Below are positions 35,253 through 44,775 of a stretch of 64,000 bases of DNA, piece after piece. Location of the stretch: the NCBI GenBank assembly GCA_021778895.1, contig JAJYBR010000001.1:62001-126000 (forward strand), read 5' to 3'. The notes under the pieces are model-generated. The model was not told the DNA's origin. It worked only from the letters and a program-made list of their open reading frames with translations, and did no database searches. The translations under genes were made by a program, and so were the position numbers. Source of the stretch: Actinomycetes bacterium (GTDB taxonomy: Bacteria > Actinomycetota > Acidimicrobiia > Acidimicrobiales > RAAP-2). The stretch's first letter is position 1. Every line of letters starts with the position of its first letter.

Positions 35253-36082
35253 CGGCCCTCGGCGTCCAGGCGCGCGTCGAGCTCGGCGGTCCGGCGGTCC
35301 TCCTCGCGCACCCACGCCCAGGCGATGGGCACTGCCCAGGCCAGCATCAGGGCGTCGCCGCCGATCCACATGATGGCCCCACCCAGATGCACGTTGGCCA
35401 GGATCGATGCGGGCGTCGACCCGAGGGGAGCGAGGGTCCGGTACGCCGGGAAGGGGTTGTGCGAGGACATCGCCAGGGCCAGACCGGTGAACGTGTCGAC
35501 GGGCACCGCGGCCATCACGTAGACGAGGCGCAGCCCGGGGTGCAGGTGCTGGCCGCTCTCGATGCCGAACGCGGCGCGGAAGAACAGGTATCCGGCCGCG
35601 ACGAAGGCCACGTGCTCGACCTCGTGGGCCGCCGGATGGGTGAGCACCACGTCGAAGAGCCCGGTGAGGTGGGTGAGCGGGATGAAGACGAAGTACACCG
35701 CGAAGGCGATCAGCGGGTGGGTGAGGGCGCGCCCGACCGGCGAGTCGAGCGCTCGGCGCACCGGCGCGGCGAGCGCCGCGGCCAGGTCGAGGGGCGCCGC
35801 CAGGGCCAGGAGCGGTCCGGCCACCATGATCAGTGCCAGGTGCTGGATCATGTGATCGCTGAAGTAGGACCGGTCGTAGATGCCCAGGACCGACTGGGTC
35901 GCCACGGCCAGGGTGGCCAGCGCGCCGAGGAACGCGACCAGGCGGCCCGCCGGCCAGCCCGGCACGCGGTGCTGGGCCCACGCGTAGAGGACCGCCAGGA
36001 CCACGAGCACGACCAGCACCCCGGGGACCACGTGGACCTGCGTCACGTCGCGCCACACGAAGGGCGCGAGCCGGGGGGCCAT
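35249..36082 (-). CDS. ctaG: Cytochrome c oxidase assembly factor CtaG (caa3-type)
   Basis: 277 residues, about seven membrane helices. Conserved His-rich segments of the caa3_CtaG family are seen (SDHMIQHLALIMVAGP, HEVEHVAFVAAGY). It is expected to help assemble the copper site of a heme-copper oxidase, none of which is in the window. ATG 36082 is preceded at exactly six bases by TAGGAT, mirroring the divergent gene at 36134. Confidence 0.88.
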   Translation of the reverse strand: MAPRLAPFVWRDVTQVHVVPGVLVVLVVLAVLYAWAQHRVPGWPAGRLVAFLGALATLAVATQSVLGIYDRSYFSDHMIQHLALIMVAGPLLALAAPLDLAAALAAPVRRALDSPVGRALTHPLIAFAVYFVFIPLTHLTGLFDVVLTHPAAHEVEHVAFVAAGYLFFRAAFGIESGQHLHPGLRLVYVMAAVPVDTFTGLALAMSSHNPFPAYRTLAPLGSTPASILANVHLGGAIMWIGGDALMLAWAVPIAWAWVREEDRRTAELDARLDAEGR

Positions 36083-36088
36083 CGCCTC

Positions 36089-36094
36089 ATCCTA
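36089..36094 (-). promoter_or_regulatory. Leaderless promoter -10 of ctaG
   Basis: TAGGAT on the minus strand, six bases (GAGGCG) before ATG 36082. Confidence 0.6.
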
Positions 36095-36121
36095 CGAGGA
36101 CTGCTTCGAGCGCCTCGTCGT

Positions 36122-36127
36122 TAGGAT
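36122..36127 (+). promoter_or_regulatory. Leaderless promoter -10 of the membrane protein at 36134
   Basis: TAGGAT, six bases (GACGCC), GTG 36134. It has the same hexamer and spacing as the divergent ctaG promoter. Confidence 0.6.
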
Positions 36128-36133
36128 GACGCC

Positions 36134-36508
36134 GTGCATGCCAAGTGGTGGGGCGCTCGGGCCCTCGTCCTCCACCTGTTGCTGGGAGTCTGGCTCGTCC
36201 TGTGCGCAGTGGCGGCGTGGTGGCAGGTGGGCCGCGCCGTGGCCGGAAACGCGCTGAGCTACCTCTACGCCATCGAGTGGCCGGTCATCGGTGTGCTGGG
36301 CGTCATCGGGTGGTTCGCACTGATCAACCTGGACAAGGTCTCGGCGGAGGACGAGGCGGCGCGCGCCGCCTACGAGGCGCACATGCGCGCCGAGGCGCGA
36401 TCGGCCCGCGAGCGCGAGGCCGAGGAGGACCCGAGCCTCGCGGCCTACAACGACCACCTCGAGCAGCTGGCCACGCGCACCAAGCGCCGGCTGTGGGGCC
36501 ACTCGTGA
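36134..36508 (+). CDS. Small membrane protein, function unknown
   Basis: 124 residues. Two hydrophobic helices (about 10-30 and 45-65), followed by a charged Glu/Arg/Ala-rich cytoplasmic tail predicted helical. No family recognised with confidence. It is next to ctaG and overlaps the DUF3817-like gene (GTGA), a pairing that suggests a membrane or respiratory role only by context. Confidence 0.7.
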   Translation: MHAKWWGARALVLHLLLGVWLVLCAVAAWWQVGRAVAGNALSYLYAIEWPVIGVLGVIGWFALINLDKVSAEDEAARAAYEAHMRAEARSAREREAEEDPSLAAYNDHLEQLATRTKRRLWGHS

Positions 36509-36867
36509 GCGCCGCCTTCGCGCGCTACCGGCTGATGTCCTTCGTGACCGGGACGACGCTGCTGGTGCTGACGGCGTTCCTCATCTTGCACAGCGCCGAC
36601 CTGGCCCTGTGGGAGCGCCTGCGCGTGCTGGTCACGATCCTCGGCGTGGGTCACGGCGTCGTGCTCTACCCCATCTACATGGTGATGTGCGTGCACCTGG
36701 CCCTCAAGGCGCGCCTAGGCGTGGGGCTGGTGGTGCTGATGCTGCTGGCCGGCTTCGTCCCGGGGCTGGCCTTCTACATGGAGCACCGGGTGGCCCAGCG
36801 CACGGCGAGCCGGCGTGAAGCCGACCGCGCGTCGATCACTCTGGCCCAGACGATGCCGGGAGCCTGA
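36505..36867 (+). CDS. DUF3817-like small membrane protein
   Basis: 120 residues, three hydrophobic helices. The pattern F-R-x-M-S-F-V-T-G-T-T-L-L then GVGHGVVLYPIYMV and a final GLAFYMEHRV matches the DUF3817 layout of actinobacteria. Function is not known. GTG 36505 overlaps the upstream stop. Confidence 0.75.
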   Translation: MSAAFARYRLMSFVTGTTLLVLTAFLILHSADLALWERLRVLVTILGVGHGVVLYPIYMVMCVHLALKARLGVGLVVLMLLAGFVPGLAFYMEHRVAQRTASRREADRASITLAQTMPGA

Positions 36868-36883
36868 CGGGCGAGTCCGTCAG
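36864..36883. terminator. Hairpin between convergent genes
   Basis: CTGACGG (36864-36870) pairs perfectly with CCGTCAG (36877-36883) around a six-base loop, just before the stop of the bL37-like gene on the other strand. No U-tract is present; it may act as a bidirectional terminator. Confidence 0.4.
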
Positions 36884-36884
36884 C

Positions 36885-36968
36885 TCAACCGCGACCGCAG
36901 TTCGGCTTCTTGCCGTGATTCGCCTTTTTCTTGGCGCGCAACTTCCGCTTGACGGTCCGCTTCGACAT
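36885..36968 (-). CDS. bL37-like 27-residue ribosomal protein
   Basis: A 27-residue, strongly basic ORF. Its core KKKANHGKKPNC matches the KANHGKRPN end of mycobacterial bL37, a tiny 50S protein found by cryo-EM. The N-terminal half is Lys/Arg-rich as expected. ATG 36968 follows a TAGGAT hexamer by eight bases. It is too short for standard gene callers. Family identity is inferred from the motif. Confidence 0.75.
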   Translation of the reverse strand: MSKRTVKRKLRAKKKANHGKKPNCGRG

Positions 36969-37011
36969 GGCTATCCATCCTAGTGCCTCGCGCGCGGTAC
37001 GGTCTCGGGTC

Positions 37012-37899
37012 GTGGGCTCGCGTACGCACGAAGCGCCGTCGTCGGGAGCGCTGACACTGGTCGCGACGCCCCTCGGGAACCTCGGGGACGTGAGCGACCG
37101 GGCGCGCACGACGCTCGCCACGGCCGACACCATCTACTGCGAGGACACGCGGCGCACCCGTGTCCTGCTCGCGGCCCTGGGCATCGGGGGCGGGGGCCGG
37201 CTGCGCAGCCTGCACCAGCACAACGAGGCGGCGCTGGCGGCCGGGGTCGTCGAGGAGGTGGCCGCGGGACGCCAGGTGGCCCTGGTGTGCGACGCCGGCA
37301 CGCCCACGATCTCGGATCCGGGCCGGCGCGCCGTCGGGGCGGTCGTCGACGCCGGGCTGCGGGTCACCACGGTGCCGGGCCCCAGTGCGGTCGTGGCCGC
37401 GCTGTCGGTGAGCGGGCTGGACACCGACCGCTTCGTGATGGAGGGCTTCTTGCCCCGCCGCGGGCCCGAGCGCCGCGCGCGCCTGGCGGCGTGGCGCAGC
37501 GAGCCGCGCACGATCGTCTTCTACGAGTCTCCCCAGCGCCTGCTCGCGACGCTGCGCGAGGTGCGCGAGGCGGTCGGCGACCGGCGCACGGCCATCGCCC
37601 GGGAGCTGACGAAGATCCACGAGGAGGTGGTGCGGGGGAGTGTGACCGAGGTCCTCGCGCACTGGCCCGACGGCGAGGTGCGCGGCGAGGTGGTCGTGGT
37701 GGTCGCCGGTGCCGCGGGCTCCGACCTCGCCGCATCGGCCACCCCCGACGCCGCCACCGTGCGCGCCGCTCTGGCCGCGCGCCTGGCGGCGGGGGACTCG
37801 GTGCGCGACGCCGCCGCGCGCGTGGCCGCCGAGCTCGGCGTGGGCCGGCACGACGCCTACGAGGCGGCGCTGGCGCTCCGGCCGGGCTCGCCGCCCTGA
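37012..37899 (+). CDS. rsmI: 16S rRNA 2'-O-ribose C1402 methyltransferase
   Basis: 295 residues, tetrapyrrole-methylase-like fold. Motifs are LVATPLGNLGDVSDRA (about 16), CEDTRRTRVLL, the SAM loop VSDAGTP-type (VCDAGTPTISDPG, about 98) and MEGFLPRRGPER. GTG 37012 is chosen because it starts just before the conserved block and is eight bases after TACGGT; longer starts would overlap the bL37-like gene. Confidence 0.93.
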   Translation: MGSRTHEAPSSGALTLVATPLGNLGDVSDRARTTLATADTIYCEDTRRTRVLLAALGIGGGGRLRSLHQHNEAALAAGVVEEVAAGRQVALVCDAGTPTISDPGRRAVGAVVDAGLRVTTVPGPSAVVAALSVSGLDTDRFVMEGFLPRRGPERRARLAAWRSEPRTIVFYESPQRLLATLREVREAVGDRRTAIARELTKIHEEVVRGSVTEVLAHWPDGEVRGEVVVVVAGAAGSDLAASATPDAATVRAALAARLAAGDSVRDAAARVAAELGVGRHDAYEAALALRPGSPP

Positions 37900-37904
37900 T
37901 TCGT

Positions 37905-37910
37905 TACGCT
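37905..37910 (+). promoter_or_regulatory. Leaderless promoter -10 of metG
   Basis: TACGCT, six bases (GGTCCG), GTG 37917. It starts immediately after the rsmI stop. Confidence 0.6.
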
Positions 37911-37916
37911 GGTCCG

Positions 37917-39446
37917 GTGGCGCGCTTCTACATCACCACGCCCATCTACTACGTCAACGACGCGCCGCACGTGGGCCACGCCTACACGACGGTGGTCGCC
38001 GACGCCCTGGCGCGCTGGCACCGCCTGGCCGGCGACGACGTCTTGTTCCTGACCGGCACCGACGAGCACGGCCAGAAGGTCGCCGAGGCCGCCGCACGCC
38101 ACGGGACCACCCCGCAGGACTGGACCGACCAGACCTCGACGCGCTTCCACGACGCCTGGGACGCCCTCAACGTCGACTACGACGACTTCATCCGCACCAC
38201 CGAGCTGCGCCACCTCGAGACGGTGCAGCGCTTCTTGGGCACGATCTACGAGAACGGGTACATCTACAAGGGCCTCTACCGGGGGCTGTACTGCGTGAGC
38301 TGCGAGGACTACTACACCCTCGAGGCCAGCGACCAGGGCCGCTGCCCGGTCCACGGCAAGCCCCTGACCGAGATGGAGGAGGAGAACTGGTTCTTCCGCC
38401 TCTCGGCCTTCGAGGAGCGCCTGCGCGACTACTACGACCAGCACCCCGAGTTCGTGACGCCCGAGACCAAGCGCAACGAGGCCTACGCGTTCATCGCCGG
38501 CGGGCTGAAGGACATCTCCATCACGCGCACCTCGATCGACTGGGGCATCCCGGTCCCCTGGGATCCGCCGCACGTCTTCTACGTGTGGTACGACGCGCTC
38601 ATCAACTACCTCACGGCCATCGGCTACGGCCGTGAGGACTCGGCGGTGGCGACCTGGTGGCCCGCCTCCCACCACCTGATCGGCAAGGAGATCATCCGCT
38701 TCCACTGCGTGTGGTGGCCCGCCATGTGCATGGCGGCGGGCCTCGAGCCTCCCCACCACGTCCAGGTCCACGGCTGGCTGCTGGTCGGCGGGCAGAAGCT
38801 CTCCAAGACGATGGCGGCCGAGGGAGCCGTGCGCCTGACCGACATCGCGCCGGTGACGCTGATCGAGGAGTTCGGCGTCGACCCCCTGCGCTACTACCTG
38901 CTGCGCGAGACGGCGCTCGGCAACGACGGCGAGTTCTCCTACGAGGGCATCGTCCAGCGCTACAACGTCGACCTGGCCAACAACCTGGGCAACCTGCTGG
39001 CCCGGGTGGTGCGCGTCGTGGAGACCAAGTGCGCCGGCGTGGCCCCGGCACCATCGGCCGCGGCCGAGCTGCGCGAGCAGGCGGCCGAGGCCGTCGCGCG
39101 GGCGCGCGACGCCTGGGAGCGCTTCGCGCCGCACGCCGCCTTGGAGGCCACGTGGTCGCTGATCGGGGCCACCAACGCGTTCCTCGAGCGCCACGCGCCC
39201 TGGAAGATGGAGCCGGGGGCAGCGGTCGAGGCGGTCCTCGGCGAGGCGCTCGAGGTCCTGCGCATCGTGGCGATCCTGGTGAGTCCGGCCATGCCCGGGG
39301 TCGCCGACGAGATCTGGCGGCGCCTCGGTCTGGCGGGGTCCCCCGGTGACGGGGGACTGGCGGGACTGGCGTGGGGTGGGACCCCCGGCGGCGTGCGCCT
39401 CGAGGGCGGCGCCCCGCTGTTCCCGAGGATCGTGAGCCCGTCGTGA
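37917..39446 (+). CDS. metG: Methionyl-tRNA synthetase
   Basis: 509 residues. The class I HIGH-type signature is HVGHAY (about 20), the KMSKS-type loop KLSKTM (about 298), and one zinc knuckle has Cys residues in YCVSCEDYY and GRCPVHG. It lacks the C-terminal tRNA-binding dimerisation domain found in longer forms, as in many actinobacteria. GTG 37917 is probably leaderless. Its stop overlaps tatD. Confidence 0.96.
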   Translation: MARFYITTPIYYVNDAPHVGHAYTTVVADALARWHRLAGDDVLFLTGTDEHGQKVAEAAARHGTTPQDWTDQTSTRFHDAWDALNVDYDDFIRTTELRHLETVQRFLGTIYENGYIYKGLYRGLYCVSCEDYYTLEASDQGRCPVHGKPLTEMEEENWFFRLSAFEERLRDYYDQHPEFVTPETKRNEAYAFIAGGLKDISITRTSIDWGIPVPWDPPHVFYVWYDALINYLTAIGYGREDSAVATWWPASHHLIGKEIIRFHCVWWPAMCMAAGLEPPHHVQVHGWLLVGGQKLSKTMAAEGAVRLTDIAPVTLIEEFGVDPLRYYLLRETALGNDGEFSYEGIVQRYNVDLANNLGNLLARVVRVVETKCAGVAPAPSAAAELREQAAEAVARARDAWERFAPHAALEATWSLIGATNAFLERHAPWKMEPGAAVEAVLGEALEVLRIVAILVSPAMPGVADEIWRRLGLAGSPGDGGLAGLAWGGTPGGVRLEGGAPLFPRIVSPS

Positions 39447-40225
39447 GCGCCTGGACCGATGCCCACTGCCACGTGCAGGACGCCTTCGTGGACCGCAGCG
39501 GCGCCACCACCGACGAGGTTTTGGCGCGCGCCCGCCAGGCCGGCGTGGACCGCGTGGTCGTCGTGGGCACGGACCTGAACACCTCGCGCCAGGCGCTCGC
39601 CCTGGCGGCCCGGCCCCAGCCGGTCGAGGTGTACGCCGTCATCGGCCTGCACCCGCACGACTCGGCGCAGGATCGCCAGCCGCTGCGCGACCTGGTCGCG
39701 GCCCGGCCCGTCGGCCTGGTTGGGGTGGGCGAGACGGGTCTGGACTACTACTACGAGCACGCCCCCCGCGCCACCCAGCGGCGGGCCTTCGCCGAGCAGG
39801 TGGGCTGGGCCCACGAGTTCGACCTGGCGCTGGTGATCCACGCGCGCGAGGCCGTCGACGACATCGTGGACATCCTGGCCAGCGAGGGAACACCGTCACG
39901 GACCGTCATCCACTGCTTCACCGGCACCGCCGAGGAGGCTGAGCGCTACCTGGCGGCGGGCTGCGACATCTCGGTGGCCGGCATCGTGACCTTCAAGAAT
40001 GCCGAGAGCCTGCGCGAGGCCGTCCGCCTGGTGCCGGCCGATCGCCTCCACGTCGAGACCGACAGCCCGTTCCTGGCCCCGGTGCCCTTTCGGGGCCAGG
40101 CCAACGAGCCGGCCAATGTCGCCGTGGTGGGCGCGTTCGTGGCCCAATTGCGTGGTGAGGACGTTGACCTGCTCGCCACGACCACCGCGGCCAACACCAG
40201 CCGGCTCTTTGCGCTTGAACGGTGA
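39443..40225 (+). CDS. tatD: TatD-family metal-dependent DNase
   Basis: 260 residues, TIM-barrel. Metal ligands appear in TDAHCHVQD (about 6), GETGLDYYY (about 96), VIHAREA, HCFTGT and ETDSPFLAP (about 209). GTG 39443 overlaps the metG stop. It is part of the conserved metG-tatD-x-rsmA-ispE order; x here is the PASTA-DPBB protein. Confidence 0.93.
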   Translation: MSAWTDAHCHVQDAFVDRSGATTDEVLARARQAGVDRVVVVGTDLNTSRQALALAARPQPVEVYAVIGLHPHDSAQDRQPLRDLVAARPVGLVGVGETGLDYYYEHAPRATQRRAFAEQVGWAHEFDLALVIHAREAVDDIVDILASEGTPSRTVIHCFTGTAEEAERYLAAGCDISVAGIVTFKNAESLREAVRLVPADRLHVETDSPFLAPVPFRGQANEPANVAVVGAFVAQLRGEDVDLLATTTAANTSRLFALER

Positions 40226-40242
40226 TTTCCACCAGGTAAGAT
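40215..40242 (+). promoter_or_regulatory. Sigma70-like promoter of the PASTA-DPBB gene
   Basis: TTGAAC (40215-40220), 16 bases, TAAGAT (40237-40242). It is the best -35/-10 pair in the window and overlaps the end of tatD. It predicts an untranslated leader of about 115 bases with GC-rich repeats (GGCGGCG twice); no known riboswitch is recognised in it. Confidence 0.6.
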
Positions 40243-40362
40243 AGAAAAAACGGCGGCGCGCCTTGTTCTGGCGGCGCCACGTGCCTAGCGTTGTCCAGAG
40301 CGTGGCGACGCGCTGACCAATCGGAGGGTGGGCTACTGACGTCATCGAGGGGCCGGGCGCGA

Positions 40363-41556
40363 ATGCGTTGGGCGTGGCGAATGGCGGTCGGGGCGGTGAT
40401 GTGCCTCGGGCCACTTCTGGGCGCCACCGAGTCATCGGGCGCCTCCACCTCGCACGTCTCGGTGGCCATGCCCAATGTCGTGCACTTCGACCGGGCGAGC
40501 ACCTTCGCGGCCATGGCCCGGTCCGGGCTGTACTTCCGCACCGTCGGCCCGGCCAACTGGAACGTCGCGGTGGGCGAGGTGCCCCGCGCCGGCACCCTGG
40601 TCCCGAAGGGGTCGACGGTCGTGGTCGACACGGCGGTCCAGGCGCCCCGCACCTCGGGGACGACCGTGATGCCCGACCTGCTCTACCGCCACCGCGCCCA
40701 GGTCTTCGCCGCCATGCGCCAGGCGGGCCTGTACTTCGTCACCAAGGGTCCCGCGACGTGGACCCTCGTCACCGCTCAGCACCCGCGACCCGGGACCGTG
40801 CTGCCGGTGCACGCCACGGCGACCCTGGGCGTGGCGCGCGTGGCGGCCTCGTCGTCCTCGGGCGAGACCACCGTGCCCAACGTGGTGCACGTCAGCCGGG
40901 CGCGAGCCTTCGCGGCCATGGCCCGGGCCGGGCTGTACTTCAGCGTGCGTGGCCCCACCGACTGGACGGTGGTGACGGGCCAGCTCCCGGCCGCCGGCAC
41001 GCGCGTCTCCTGGCACGGCTCGGTCGTGCTGGACGTCGCCCACGTGGTGGCGGCTCCACGCGTGCCGACCGCCGCGCACACCGTCAGTGGGTCGCTGGTG
41101 CCCGACTTGGTCGGCCTGAGCGCCCACGTGGCCGAGACGACCTCGGCGAGGGTCGGTCTGCGCCTGCGCGTGCGGGTGGCCGGCGGCGGGGCCTGGAACG
41201 TCGTCGTGGCCCAGAGCCTGCGCCCGGGGGCGCGGGTGGCCCGCGGCACCATCATGGTGGTGCGGGGCGTGCGCCGGGTCTCCCACGCCCCGGCGACCAC
41301 GACCACGGTCGCCGCGCACGCCCGCATCGGGATCGCCACGTGGTACTCGTACATCCCGGGCCAGTGCGCCACCTGGTACCTGCCCCGGGGCACGCGCATC
41401 ACGGTGGAGGACCTGGCGACCGGGCGCACCATCTCGTGCCTGGTCACCGACCGTCAGGACTACGCGCCCGGTCGCGTCGTGGACCTGTCGGAGTCCCAGT
41501 TCAGCTTGCTCGCGCCGCTGTGGCGCGGCGTGGTCGAGGTGCGCGTCACGTGGTGA
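40363..41556 (+). CDS. Secreted PASTA-repeat protein with C-terminal RlpA-like double-psi beta-barrel
   Basis: 397 residues. Signal peptide at about 1-27, four PASTA-like repeats (about 36-90, 100-160, 173-230 and 247-303), a Thr-rich linker, then a DPBB domain (about 320-397) with LPRGTRITVEDLATGR, VTDRQD and VVDLS. PASTA domains bind peptidoglycan fragments; DPBB domains occur in RlpA, expansins and the 3D domain of YabE/Sps. It sits exactly where actinobacteria carry rpfB and firmicutes yabE, so a cell-wall remodelling role is likely. ATG 40363 has GAGGGG upstream; an in-frame CTG at 40336 has a better-spaced GGAGG. Confidence 0.85.
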   Translation: MRWAWRMAVGAVMCLGPLLGATESSGASTSHVSVAMPNVVHFDRASTFAAMARSGLYFRTVGPANWNVAVGEVPRAGTLVPKGSTVVVDTAVQAPRTSGTTVMPDLLYRHRAQVFAAMRQAGLYFVTKGPATWTLVTAQHPRPGTVLPVHATATLGVARVAASSSSGETTVPNVVHVSRARAFAAMARAGLYFSVRGPTDWTVVTGQLPAAGTRVSWHGSVVLDVAHVVAAPRVPTAAHTVSGSLVPDLVGLSAHVAETTSARVGLRLRVRVAGGGAWNVVVAQSLRPGARVARGTIMVVRGVRRVSHAPATTTTVAAHARIGIATWYSYIPGQCATWYLPRGTRITVEDLATGRTISCLVTDRQDYAPGRVVDLSESQFSLLAPLWRGVVEVRVTW

Positions 41557-41562
41557 CAACCT
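41557..41562 (+). promoter_or_regulatory. Leaderless promoter -10 of rsmA
   Basis: CAACCT, six bases, GTG 41569. An AGGAGG directly abuts the GTG, too close to act as a ribosome site. Confidence 0.4.
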
Positions 41563-41568
41563 AGGAGG

Positions 41569-42384
41569 GTGACCCACACCCGCTCCGCCCTGAGCGCGCT
41601 GCTGCGCGACCACGACCTGCACCCGTCGCGGGCCCTGGGCCAGAACTTCGTGGTGGATCCCAACACGGTGCGCCGCATCGCGCGCCTGGCCCAGGTGGGT
41701 CCGGGCGACCTGGTCGTCGAGATCGGCGCCGGCCTCGGGTCCCTCACGCTGGCCCTGGTCGAGACGGGGGCCGAGGTCGTCGCCGTCGAGGTCGACCGCC
41801 ATCTCCTCGAACCGCTGCGGGCCGTGGTCGAGCCGCGCGGCGTGGTCGTCCACGCGGGCGACGCGACCGAGCTGGACTTCGGGGCGCTCACCGCGGGGCG
41901 CCCGTGCGTGGTCGTCGCGAACCTGCCCTACAACGTCGCCACCCCGCTGGTGCTGCGGCTGCTCGAGTCCCAGCCCGTGGTGCGGCGGCTCTTCGTCATG
42001 GTCCAGCGCGAGGTGGGCGAGCGCTGGGTCGCCAGCCCGGGGGACCCGGCCTACGGCGGTGTCTCCTTGCGCGTGGCCTACTTCGCCGACGCGCACCTGG
42101 CCGGGCGCGTGCCGGCCACCGTCTTCCTGCCGCGCCCGCGGGTCGAGTCGGTGCTGGTGGCCCTGGAGCGGCGCGCCGCCGTGCGGATCGACCCGGCGCG
42201 CGTGAGCGAGGCGGACCTCTTCGACGTCGTGCGCCGCGCCTTCGCGCACCGGCGCAAGATGCTGCGGCGATCCCTGGCCGACTGGTCCGACCCCGAGGTC
42301 TTCGCGCGCGCCGGCGTCGAGCCCACGGCGCGGCCCGAGGAACTCGGGCTCGAGGAGTTCGCCCGGCTAGCGTCGGCGCGGTGA
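41569..42384 (+). CDS. rsmA: 16S rRNA N6,N6-dimethyladenosine transferase (KsgA)
   Basis: 271 residues. LGQNFVVDPNTVRRI (about 24), SAM motif VVEIGAGLGSLTLAL (about 51) and catalytic VVANLPYNVATPLVLRLL (about 117, NLPY). It dimethylates two adenosines of the 16S 3' end. GTG 41569. It overlaps ispE by four bases (GTGA). Confidence 0.96.
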   Translation: MTHTRSALSALLRDHDLHPSRALGQNFVVDPNTVRRIARLAQVGPGDLVVEIGAGLGSLTLALVETGAEVVAVEVDRHLLEPLRAVVEPRGVVVHAGDATELDFGALTAGRPCVVVANLPYNVATPLVLRLLESQPVVRRLFVMVQREVGERWVASPGDPAYGGVSLRVAYFADAHLAGRVPATVFLPRPRVESVLVALERRAAVRIDPARVSEADLFDVVRRAFAHRRKMLRRSLADWSDPEVFARAGVEPTARPEELGLEEFARLASAR

Positions 42385-43118
42385 CGACCCTCGACGCACC
42401 GGCCAAGTTGACCTGGAGCCTCGAGATCCGGGCCCGCCGCGCCGACGGCTACCACGAGCTGCGCGCCGAGATGGTGACCCTGGGGCTGCGCGACAGGCTG
42501 CACCTCGACGAGGACGGCACGGGGGTGCGCTTCACCGGGCCCTACGGGGCGTCGGTCGACCGCGGTCCGGGCGAGCTGGTGGGGCGCGCCCTGGCCCTAG
42601 TCGGTCGCAGCGCCGGGGTCGAGGTCGACAAGCAGATCCCCGTCGGCGGCGGGCTCGGGGGCGGCAGCGCCGACGCCGCCGCGATCCTGCGCTGGGCCGG
42701 CGGGGTGGACGCGCACAGCGCGCTGCGCCTCGGTGCCGACGTGCCGTTCTGCCAGATGGGGGGCCGGGCCCGCGTCGAGGGGATCGGGGAGGAGCTGCAC
42801 CCGCTGGCCTGGGTCGAGCGGGACGTGACGCTGCTGGTGCCGGACTTCTCGGTGTCGACCGCGGCGTGCTACCGGGCCTTTGACGAGATGGCGGCCGGCG
42901 GCTGGCGCGCCGGCGGGCGCAACCACCTCGAAGAGCCGGCCCGCCGGGTCGAGCCGCGCCTGGCGGCGACCCTGGACTGGCTGCGGGCCCGCTACGGCGA
43001 GGTCCATCTCGCGGGGTCCGGCTCGACGCTGTACGTGGAGGGGCGCCTCGATTCCCCCGAGGTGCTGACGGGGCCGGCGGGGCCGGTGCGAGTGGTGGTG
43101 ACGGCGACGGCGCGCTAG
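42381..43118 (+). CDS. ispE: 4-diphosphocytidyl-2-C-methyl-D-erythritol kinase
   Basis: 245 residues, MEP isoprenoid pathway. APAKLTWSLEI and RRADGYHEL at the N-terminus, the GHMP ATP loop IPVGGGLGGGSADAAA (about 90) and LGADVPFC (about 118). It is clearly shorter than the usual 285-315 residues; the deletions fall before the GHMP loop and in the C-terminal GHMP domain. The core is intact, so it is probably active. Confidence 0.9.
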   Translation: MTTLDAPAKLTWSLEIRARRADGYHELRAEMVTLGLRDRLHLDEDGTGVRFTGPYGASVDRGPGELVGRALALVGRSAGVEVDKQIPVGGGLGGGSADAAAILRWAGGVDAHSALRLGADVPFCQMGGRARVEGIGEELHPLAWVERDVTLLVPDFSVSTAACYRAFDEMAAGGWRAGGRNHLEEPARRVEPRLAATLDWLRARYGEVHLAGSGSTLYVEGRLDSPEVLTGPAGPVRVVVTATAR

Positions 43119-43125
43119 CGCGCGA

Positions 43126-43227
43126 CTATTTGCCCGCCGCGCGGCGCTGGAAGCGCGTCCGCTTGAGCATCTTCTTGTGCTTCTTTTTGCGCATGCGCTT
43201 GCGGCGCTTCTTGATGAGAGATCCCAT
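43126..43227 (-). CDS. bS22-like 33-residue ribosomal protein (AURKAIP1/COX24 domain)
   Basis: 33 residues, almost entirely Lys/Arg: starts MGSLIKKRRKRMRKKKHKKM and ends FQRRAAGK. This is the pattern of the actinobacterial AURKAIP1/COX24-domain protein known as bS22 on mycobacterial 30S subunits. Too short for normal gene finding. ATG 43227; convergent with ispE at a seven-base gap. Confidence 0.85.
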   Translation of the reverse strand: MGSLIKKRRKRMRKKKHKKMLKRTRFQRRAAGK

Positions 43228-43240
43228 GGCCTGTAGAACA

Positions 43241-43513
43241 CTACTCGGTTCTGCGGCGGGGCCGCGTCGAGACCGGGGTCCCCGCGTGCCGCTCAATGCG
43301 CAAGGCGCGCCGGGGGCAGTCGCGCACGGCCCAGCGCGCGGACTCGCGCACGGCCCGTGCGGACAGGGGCGTGGGCTCGGTCACGAGGATGGGGTAGCCC
43401 CACTCGTCCAGGTGCACGAGCTCGGGGGCCAGCTCGGCGCAGTGCCCGTAGCCGTCGCACTGGATCGGGTCCACCACCAGGACGAAGGTGTCGGTGCGCG
43501 ACCTCACTGCCAT
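43241..43513 (-). CDS. Ferredoxin, 3Fe-4S-like
   Basis: 90 residues. Cys residues in VDPIQCDGYGHCAELAPE (about 19 and 25) and in DCPRRAL (about 66) match the three-cysteine ferredoxins that serve P450s and related enzymes in actinobacteria. A basic C-terminal tail follows. ATG 43513 overlaps the NuoF-like stop by ten bases, so it is the last gene of the leftward electron-transfer operon. Confidence 0.88.
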   Translation of the reverse strand: MAVRSRTDTFVLVVDPIQCDGYGHCAELAPELVHLDEWGYPILVTEPTPLSARAVRESARWAVRDCPRRALRIERHAGTPVSTRPRRRTE

Positions 43514-44775
43514 ACCAGGTCCTCCTCGGGCTCGAGTTCGGGCACCGCGACGACCGGGCGGTGCGTGCGCGCCGCGCAGGGCCGTCCCCGTCGGTGGGAG
43601 TCGAGGTGGTCGGCGAAGACGTCGAGCGCGGAGCGCACCAGGCGGACGACCCCGTCGGGGTGACGGCAGGCGCCCCGTCCCGCGATGGCGTCGGTGCGCT
43701 GCGCGAGGCGGATCAGGGCCGCGGGCGCATCGGGTCCCGAGGCCACGACCTGCTGCAGGTCGAGGGCCAGCGCTGGCAGGCCGAAGGCGCACGGTCCGCA
43801 CTGGCGGGCGCTCTCGTGGGCCATCCAGCGCGTGATGCGCAGGGTCTCGCGCAGGCCGCAGGCCTCGGCCGGCAGCACAACGACGACGCCCGCGCCGACG
43901 CTGGCCCCGAGGGGTGCCAAGGCCTCGTTGGCCAGCGGCGCGTCCAGGTGGGAGGCGGCGAGCCAGGTCCCGCCGTAGCCACCGAGGAGGACCGCCTGGG
44001 GCTCGGGGTCTGCGCCCGCGGCCCGCAGGGCCGCGCGCAGCGGCGTGCCCAGGGCCAGTTCGACGACCGTGGGGCGGGCCACCGCGCCGGTGATCGACAC
44101 CAGCGCGCTGCCGGGGCTGGCCTCGGTGCCCAGTGCGCGGAACCACGCCGCGCCGTAGCGGGCGATCAGGGCGACGTGCGCGCAGGTCTCGGCGTTGTCG
44201 ACGAGCGCCGGGGCGCCCCCGATGCGCAGGATGCTCGGCCGGTGCGGCCGGTACTGGGGCAGTGCCTGGTGGTCGTTCAGCCAGTGCACCAGGGCCGACT
44301 CCTCGCCGGCCACGTAGCGCCACGGCGGGGTGAACAGCTCCAGGGTGAGGCCGCGGTCCTCGCGGTCGCGCTCGCGCAGCGCGGCGCGCACCCCGCGCAC
44401 GGTCGACTGCTCGTCGCGGGCGACGGCGATCGAGACGCGCGTCGCACCGATCGCCCGGGCCAACGCGGTCGCGCCGTCGAGGACCAGGTGCGGGTTGGTC
44501 GCCAGCAGGGTGCGGTCCTTGTGGGCGGCCGGCTCGCCCTCCATGGCGTTGACGACCAGGACCTTGGTGTGGCCGCGCTGGGCGCGCACCACGGCCGCCT
44601 TGCGCGCGGTGGGGAACGCGGCCCCCCCGCGCCCGGTGAGCCCGGCCGCCTCGATCTCGTCGAGCAGCCCGGTGCGCGCGGTCCCAGCGCCGTAGCGGGC
44701 GCGGTGCTCGACCAGGCTGGCCGGGGGTCCCCCCACGCCAGTGAGGAGGCGCGGCAACGACCGTGCGTCACCCAC
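43504..44775 (-). CDS. NuoF-like flavoprotein (NADH:quinone oxidoreductase F-type, SLBB and 4Fe-4S region)
   Basis: 423 residues. The FMN/NADH domain has GLTGRGGAAFPTARK (about 45), NAMEGEPAAHKDR and PWRYVAGEESALVHW (about 150). The SLBB-like middle is followed by the iron-sulfur region SARQCGPC and GACRHPDG. Not part of a complex I operon, so probably a stand-alone NAD(P)H-ferredoxin or membrane reductase module. GTG 44775 overlaps the upstream gene by eight bases. Confidence 0.88.
   Translation of the reverse strand: MGDARSLPRLLTGVGGPPASLVEHRARYGAGTARTGLLDEIEAAGLTGRGGAAFPTARKAAVVRAQRGHTKVLVVNAMEGEPAAHKDRTLLATNPHLVLDGATALARAIGATRVSIAVARDEQSTVRGVRAALRERDREDRGLTLELFTPPWRYVAGEESALVHWLNDHQALPQYRPHRPSILRIGGAPALVDNAETCAHVALIARYGAAWFRALGTEASPGSALVSITGAVARPTVVELALGTPLRAALRAAGADPEPQAVLLGGYGGTWLAASHLDAPLANEALAPLGASVGAGVVVVLPAEACGLRETLRITRWMAHESARQCGPCAFGLPALALDLQQVVASGPDAPAALIRLAQRTDAIAGRGACRHPDGVVRLVRSALDVFADHLDSHRRGRPCAARTHRPVVAVPELEPEEDLVWQ

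Follow-up and report, generated by a model that had tools for sequence, protein, structure and literature searches.

The gene that stands at the rpfB/yabE position in this genome, from a little-studied group of actinobacteria, here called x, is most likely the slot's own gene with its stalk exchanged and not an unrelated stand-in for RpfB or YabE. It lies within the window (the whole analysed stretch of 64,000 nt) and encodes PASTA-like repeats followed by a C-terminal double-psi beta-barrel (DPBB). The PASTA stalk on the barrel of this slot is new, domain displacement at the slot and the DUF348-G5-DPBB architecture being already known; our searches of the open-licence literature listed no PASTA-DPBB protein at this slot, and other papers could contain one. 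The domains, the slot, the barrel residues, a PASTA subtype shared with a kinase-like protein and a conserved promoter-like pair were computed directly. As a whole, we favour, with somewhat more confidence than doubt, an explanation in which x is a DPBB-form slot gene that carries a PASTA stalk, is secreted, acts on glycan and is tied to a pseudokinase through its repeat subtype.

The genome around the window comprises 1.81 Mb in 16 contigs and is 94% complete. Pfam searches bore out the order rsmI-metG-tatD-x-rsmA-ispE, and with it the earlier note's assignment of x to the metG-tatD-x-rsmA-ispE setting of rpfB and yabE; x has the arrangement tatD-x-ksgA(rsmA)-ispE by which the RpfB/YabE slot is recognized. 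A search with x found matches in 44 of the 198 genomes of the class, and rsmA adjoins x in all 30 loci fetched in this way. The distance test of -50 to 700 nt was passed by 79 of the 80 named genome loci, the eightieth having a 62-nt overlap. Of the 27 genus loci, 23 have a 4-nt overlap between x and rsmA, which suggests that the two genes are translationally coupled. An Rfam search for a known riboswitch 5' of x (positions 36000-44000, E ≤ 1) returned just a weak Guanidine-II match (21.1 bits vs 32), which sits within rsmA on the opposite strand, and this candidate was rejected.

Table 1. Features of the x locus, in window coordinates
Feature	Position	Strand	Basis
tatD, 5' neighbour of x	39440..40225	+	PF01026, E 1.5e-73
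Promoter-like pair: TTGTTC (40263-40268), 17-nt spacer, TAGCGT (40286-40291)	40263..40291	+	Conservation in the genus
GGAGGG (40323-40328), resembling a Shine-Dalgarno sequence, then CTG (40336-40338) in frame with x as its probable start	40323..40338	+	Spacer alignment
Gene x: signal-like N-terminus, four PASTA repeats, DPBB	40363..41556	+	ATG start of the earlier note; Pfam, AlphaFold2
Putative signal peptide region, residues 1-29	40363..40449	+	Arginines then hydrophobic stretch; low-confidence model helices 2-13 and 16-19
PASTA repeat 1	40450..40653	+	AlphaFold2 model, blastp between repeats, iterated profile
PASTA repeat 2	40654..40860	+	AlphaFold2 model, blastp between repeats, iterated profile
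PASTA repeat 3	40858..41058	+	Model, blastp, profile; 101 bits by subtype profile (repeat 3 is one of its seeds)
PASTA repeat 4, nearest the general Pfam model	41083..41280	+	PF03793, 23.5 bits; blastp, profile
DPBB domain, residues 318-397	41314..41553	+	Pfam, AlphaFold2, barrel alignment, Foldseek, VIA
DPBB residues T326 (41338-41340), Cys 335, Cys 359, T337, D363 (41449-41451), D374 (41482-41484)		+	
rsmA (ksgA), start 12 nt past x in this genome	41569..42384	+	PF00398, E 1e-44
ispE, 3' neighbour	42378..43118	+	GHMP kinase domains (Pfam)

Over its full length, x matched the Pfam PASTA family with an E value of 4e-17; four stretches appeared at E ≤ 1 and a single one, the best (residues 246-297, repeat 4), at E ≤ 0.01. 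Comparison of the repeats by blastp reported five of the six pairs, with 34.8-54.8% identity, the pair 1-4 being absent. An AlphaFold2 model built on 24 genus rows contains four PASTA-like units and the barrel (mean pLDDT 83.6); the individual domains are well modelled, and with a pTM of 0.29 their arrangement is not fixed. The model matched the PASTA domains of M. tuberculosis PknB in Foldseek (E 2.9e-12) and a PASTA of S. aureus PBP1 in VIA (Z 11.1), so that family search and predicted fold agree on the four PASTA-like repeats described in the earlier note. For the barrel, DPBB_1 scored 26.1 bits in x alone, under the cut-off of 28.8, and 29.1 bits, above it, when the genome search scored x together with its neighbours. 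Foldseek aligned the barrel with PA4485 (4avr; E 3.0e-6, TM 0.73 by target) and VIA with 4avr over 78 residues at 1.6 A (Z 13.1), after PA4485 the top-ranking structures included expansins (Z 10.6-11.7), and a loosenin also matched. The comparison with RlpA and expansins that had been proposed for x thus confirmed an RlpA-like DPBB. Expansins consist of a DPBB plus a C-terminal D2 domain; x ends with the barrel, and no expansin-type D2 was found by Pfam or in the model. The Pfam scan of x (E ≤ 1) gave PASTA and DPBB_1 only, and neither DUF348, G5, Rpf (PF06737), 3D (PF06725) nor SPOR was among its matches. The NCBIfam rlpA subfamily model has a cut-off of 82.15 bits, and x scored 14.3.

The content of the tatD-rsmA interval was surveyed across the class, as the earlier note had proposed, and proved to be Rpf, DPBB or an empty slot, depending on the lineage. 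Used as anchor, rsmA gave a match in 97 of the 100 genomes of the family and in 185 of the 198 of the class. From the family 90 loci were compared and from the class 120, genome G047 being in both; the class loci were hand-chosen, with nearly all of genus g40 (reduced genomes) left out. A barrel occupies the slot in all 27 genus loci. Among the 63 other family loci, it was found in 36 by profile and in 11 more by tblastn; 14 were empty and 2 unassigned. The 120 class loci held DUF348/G5-DPBB (17), DUF348/G5-Rpf (10), Rpf without DUF348/G5 (11, one of which, L149, is cut by the contig start), DPBB without DUF348/G5 (4, one from a family genome), a divergent DPBB of family f2 (14), no gene (55) or a content that the profiles left unassigned (9, at least two of which, L152 and L177, show a barrel or DUF348 and Rpf by other searches). 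Pfam concurs for 9 of 10 class representatives, the f2 representative giving no Pfam match. In other classes of the phylum, DUF348 and/or G5 precedes the barrel in 22 of 22 loci, which are the best matches of a barrel search and two of which are cut by contig ends; rsmA is in the locus in 21 of them. Together, the 17 class loci and the 22 loci of other classes show that DUF348-G5-DPBB is a third form of the protein at this slot, and a widespread one. The same architecture has been noted before in P. acnes PPA2239, in the accessible text of PMC3224659 and PMC3848858.

Other arrangements were also observed at the slot. Rpf without DUF348-G5 lies beside rsmA in members of the same order and class (L130, L131, L145, L161, L163, L168, L170, L176, L178 and L191). 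In genus g106, 11 of 12 loci have an empty slot, the tatD and rsmA matches being 0-105 nt apart (L103, L105, L110, L111, L116, L118, L119, L121-L123 and L126), and the remaining one, L120, is cut by the contig end. Finally, one locus titled Candidatus Saccharibacteria (L320) carries the whole rsmI-metG-tatD-x-rsmA-ispE order with a genus-like PASTA-DPBB x; its contig has most likely been mislabelled or mis-binned.

Across these loci, the slot barrel is constant at the C-terminus and the N-terminus varies between DUF348-G5, a linker only and PASTA. As DUF348/G5-DPBB is present at this slot both within the class and beyond it, the barrel was probably there already and the stalk was exchanged, and the DUF348-G5-DPBB_1 form is the most likely source of x. 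The earlier note had read the locus as a PASTA-DPBB protein instead of rpfB/yabE; the slot and the domains stand, and the displacement of the locus's own gene probably does not, in view of the 17 of 120 and 22 of 22 loci with DUF348/G5-DPBB. That an unrelated PASTA-DPBB gene displaced rpfB/yabE would fit the lack of DUF348, G5 and Rpf in x. However, the slot holds the same sort of barrel on DUF348-G5 within the class as well as in other classes, and a PASTA-less barrel occupies it in the rest of the family. On these two grounds we rejected such a displacement, which we hold to be very improbable.

No DUF348 or G5 was detected in the family members with custom profiles, bar one false G5 match in a genus protein (L059). 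Of the 25 complete x proteins of the genus, 19 have PASTA by an iterated profile, with 1-4 repeats, and Pfam found it in 18 of 24; the stalk is not essential, since 6 of the 25 complete proteins are without PASTA. In an RsmA tree of 48 rows (27 from the genus and 21 hand-chosen others), the genus forms one clade (99/92), and the six PASTA-less members together with one truncated locus also form one clade (97/93). With this topology, the history of PASTA needs two changes, one gain and one loss. An ancestral DUF348-G5-DPBB protein would thus have lost its DUF348-G5 stalk on the path to the family, and PASTA repeats, now 1-4 in number, would have been gained at the base of the genus.

We then considered which wall enzymes accompany x. 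Rpf (PF06737) was not found in the genome, 94% complete, at E ≤ 10, and so the canonical RpfB elsewhere that the earlier note named as a refutation did not turn up. Likewise, no SLT was found at E ≤ 0.1, no DUF348 at E ≤ 0.001, and no DPBB_1 besides x at E ≤ 1. Being the sole member found in the genome of the three enzyme families tested (Rpf, SLT and DPBB_1), x is likelier to have a wall role. However, a replacement of Rpf does not extend to a general rule. The idea that Rpf and the slot barrel exclude each other was rejected as a rule, since an Rpf match lies elsewhere in 15 of the 17 class genomes whose slot holds DUF348/G5-DPBB, and one is also present in 2 of 10 genomes of x's own genus.

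An alignment of the genus (24 rows, two truncated loci and the aberrant L057 being excluded from the 27) has 22 invariant columns, all within the barrel. A wider barrel alignment has 98 rows, of which 27 are from the genus, 37 from the rest of the family, 20 from the rest of the class outside families f1 and f2, and 14 from family f2. Cys 335 is present in 94 and Cys 359 in all of the 98 barrels. D374 occurs in every row of the genus, the rest of the family and the rest of the class (27/27, 37/37 and 20/20) and D363, spaced 11 residues from it, in 27/27, 36/37 and 19/20. At the position of the RlpA active-site His, which we take to be H131 of P. aeruginosa RlpA, the genus has T in 21 rows (T337 in x), A in 2, V in 2, S in 1 and H in 1; H is found in 18 of the 20 class rows and S in 36 of the 37 other-family rows. 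The earlier remark that the residues needed by RlpA are not obviously conserved therefore applies to the His and fails for the Asp, with D363 and D374 in all 27 genus rows.

A profile of 23 barrels matched PA4485 with an E value of 9.4e-16, both Asp being kept. Its match to the expansin YoaJ was weak (domain i-E 0.25, sequence E 0.0098), and in that weak alignment D363 falls on D71 and D374 on D82, with residues counted from the printed range. According to the accessible text of PMC4499186, D151 and D162 of YuiC correspond to D297 and D308 of MltA, with the same spacing of 11. The functional Asp, D308 in MltA and D82 in expansin, stands at the place of D374, D363 being its partner. In P. aeruginosa RlpA, the catalytic Asp is D168, as given in the accessible part of PMC9712689, and we infer that it is placed at D374. 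A Thr orients the key Asp in YuiC/MltA and in expansin proteins (excerpts of PMC4499186 and PMC5072189); T326, invariant in the 24 genus rows, would by analogy be its match. With the Asp pair kept and the RlpA His replaced, the x barrel may cleave or loosen glycan, as judged from these residues.

It could also be that the barrel does not cut, and binds or loosens glycan in the manner of expansins, with PASTA setting the binding site. We regard this as quite possible and lean against it. The loss of the RlpA-type His and the expansins among the best structures after PA4485 would be consistent with it, as would E. coli RlpA, which has a Ser at the Asp position, has no transglycosylase activity and is a structural divisome protein (accessible part of PMC9712689). 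The f2 barrel, moreover, has lost both Asp (14 of 14 rows) and persists, so that some relatives can hardly be catalytic. D374 and D363 argue against a non-cutting barrel, as every genus row keeps them at the site of the catalytic Asp of MltA and YuiC. However, expansin Asp82 corresponds to the residue that is catalytic in MltA-type enzymes and is needed for expansin function (accessible text of PMC5072189), so the presence of the Asp alone is not decisive. The f2 loci with a short divergent barrel are L133, L137, L139, L140, L142, L143, L146-L148, L156, L159, L162, L165 and L173, and by its residues the f2 slot barrel is probably a non-catalytic descendant.

The PASTA repeats of x have close relatives in the same genome, which encodes two PASTA kinase-like proteins. 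The canonical one has HRD, DFG and four PASTA; the second has HGG for HRD and DVA for DFG (L367:1613-3442, minus strand, on contig 8, beyond the window). The last repeat of this pseudokinase is the nearest to x repeats 1-3 among the two proteins (33-35% identity, E 7e-10 to 3e-9), the best match of the canonical kinase having an E value of 4.5e-5. A subtype profile, whose seeds (five x repeats and two kinase-like repeats) come from the genus only and favour it, gave best matches of at least 59.6 bits in 27 of 27 genus genomes, and matches of at most 35 bits in 5 of 73 other family genomes. A strong match beyond the x locus is present in 26 of the 27 genus genomes, G278 having none; 25 of these matches lie in open frames of 599-788 aa, and that of G282 in a frame of 133 aa. 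In nine subtype-bearing proteins that we read (the one of this genome and eight picked non-randomly from x-query matches), the subtype is the last repeat of a kinase-like protein and the HRD Asp is absent from all nine, L366 retaining DFG. A PASTA tree separates 51 x repeats and 9 pseudokinase last repeats from 23 other PASTA with an SH-aLRT of 99.5; its repeats were gathered with an x-started profile, which favours recovery of this group, its inner forks are weak with 71 columns for 83 rows, and one outside protein (L369) begins unlike a kinase.

The PASTA domains of M. tuberculosis PknB bind muropeptides, according to the accessible text of PMC3145798. A private PASTA subtype, having no further strong match in the genus genomes, might pair a secreted wall enzyme with a membrane sensor, both reading one peptidoglycan feature, such that a resuscitation/growth locus would feed a non-catalytic kinase signal; we put this forward tentatively, as rather unlikely. 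A related view makes signalling the very function of x, which would compete for, or supply, the ligand of the PASTA pseudokinase of the same subtype. The second strong subtype match in 26 of 27 genomes, PASTA in 19 of 25 complete x proteins and the missing HRD Asp in the nine proteins read would all suit this view. We consider it rather unlikely, as the six members without PASTA in x retain the other match, and a common repeat is no proof of a common ligand.

The spacer between tatD and x was compared in the 22 genus loci whose sequence includes tatD. A TAGC[GC]T box is present in 21 of the 22 spacers, as TAGCCT in two and otherwise as TAGCGT; in 20 of them it is inside the first 150 nt, against a mean of 1.5 and a maximum of 6 in shuffled sequence. 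A TTG hexamer stands 15-20 nt 5' of the box in 18 spacers, the distance being 17 nt in 17 of them and 18 nt in the other. A simple consensus scan called no promoter at 40263-40291. Further downstream, the genus spacers have a purine-rich stretch between the promoter-like pair and a CTG at 40336, which is the sole codon column reading CTG in all 22 aligned spacers and which is in frame with x and open to its stop in 22 of 22; L057 and L061 have ATG or TTG two codons 5' of it. From this conservation, the CTG at 40336 is likely to be the start of x, rather than the ATG at 40363. Overlap with the conserved -10-like box led us to reject a TTG at 40291 as the start. The conserved promoter-like pair and the 22 invariant columns of the 24 genus rows, all in the barrel, also speak against a decaying gene with no selected function; the empty slot of genus g106 and of many class genomes would fit such decay, which we find hardly credible for x.

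The favoured explanation, that of a slot barrel given a PASTA stalk, can be drawn together as follows. The gene would be expressed from its own promoter, as one unit with rsmA and ispE. The protein is presumably secreted, and its PASTA stalk, binding muropeptide or uncrosslinked strands, would anchor it to peptidoglycan that the pseudokinase may also sense. The barrel would then act on the glycan strand via D374, with D363 and T326, by a lytic transglycosylase cut or an expansin-like loosening. In the published example of this slot, the end domain was swapped between phyla on a constant stalk (accessible text of PMC1084345). Here, both modules change within one class, with Rpf or DPBB on DUF348-G5, either of them without DUF348-G5, and a PASTA stalk on DPBB. 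This suggests that what selection maintains is not a particular domain but the place beside rsmA and ispE, together with the job of acting on the glycan strand. Moreover, the shared PASTA subtype offers a concrete test of PASTA recognition, in a genome without detected Rpf or SLT.

Several known systems can be compared with x. RpfB is a wall-remodelling 'wake-up' factor. Protein x resembles it in slot, in gene order and in having an N-terminal stalk with a C-terminal domain of a glycan-acting type; it differs in lacking Rpf, DUF348 and G5, and in having DPBB and PASTA instead. The actinobacterial RpfB has the architecture DUF348-G5-Rpf in the order tatD-rpfB-ksgA-ispE, with PMC6009663, as far as its accessible text goes, as the source for M. 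tuberculosis. In Firmicutes, YabE/SpsB combine DUF348-G5 with a Sps/3D domain, a case described as 'non-orthologous domain displacement' in the accessible part of PMC1084345. With these, x shares the slot, a barrel of the wider MltA/expansin kind and the Asp-Asp spacing found in YuiC and MltA; however, its barrel scores with DPBB_1 and not with 3D, and it is the stalk that was swapped in x, not the end domain. P. acnes PPA2239 has the same kind of barrel at its C-terminus, on a DUF348-G5 stalk, and the accessible text of PMC3224659 and PMC3848858 does not tie it to the rpfB slot. P. aeruginosa RlpA shares DPBB_1 and the catalytic Asp with x, which differs from it in having no SPOR domain and in the replacement of the RlpA His. 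Finally, unlike the PASTA Ser/Thr kinases (PknB/StkP), x has no kinase domain and begins with a signal-like N-terminus instead of a membrane kinase; it shares with them the PASTA stalk, whose subtype is that of the last repeat of the genus pseudokinase.
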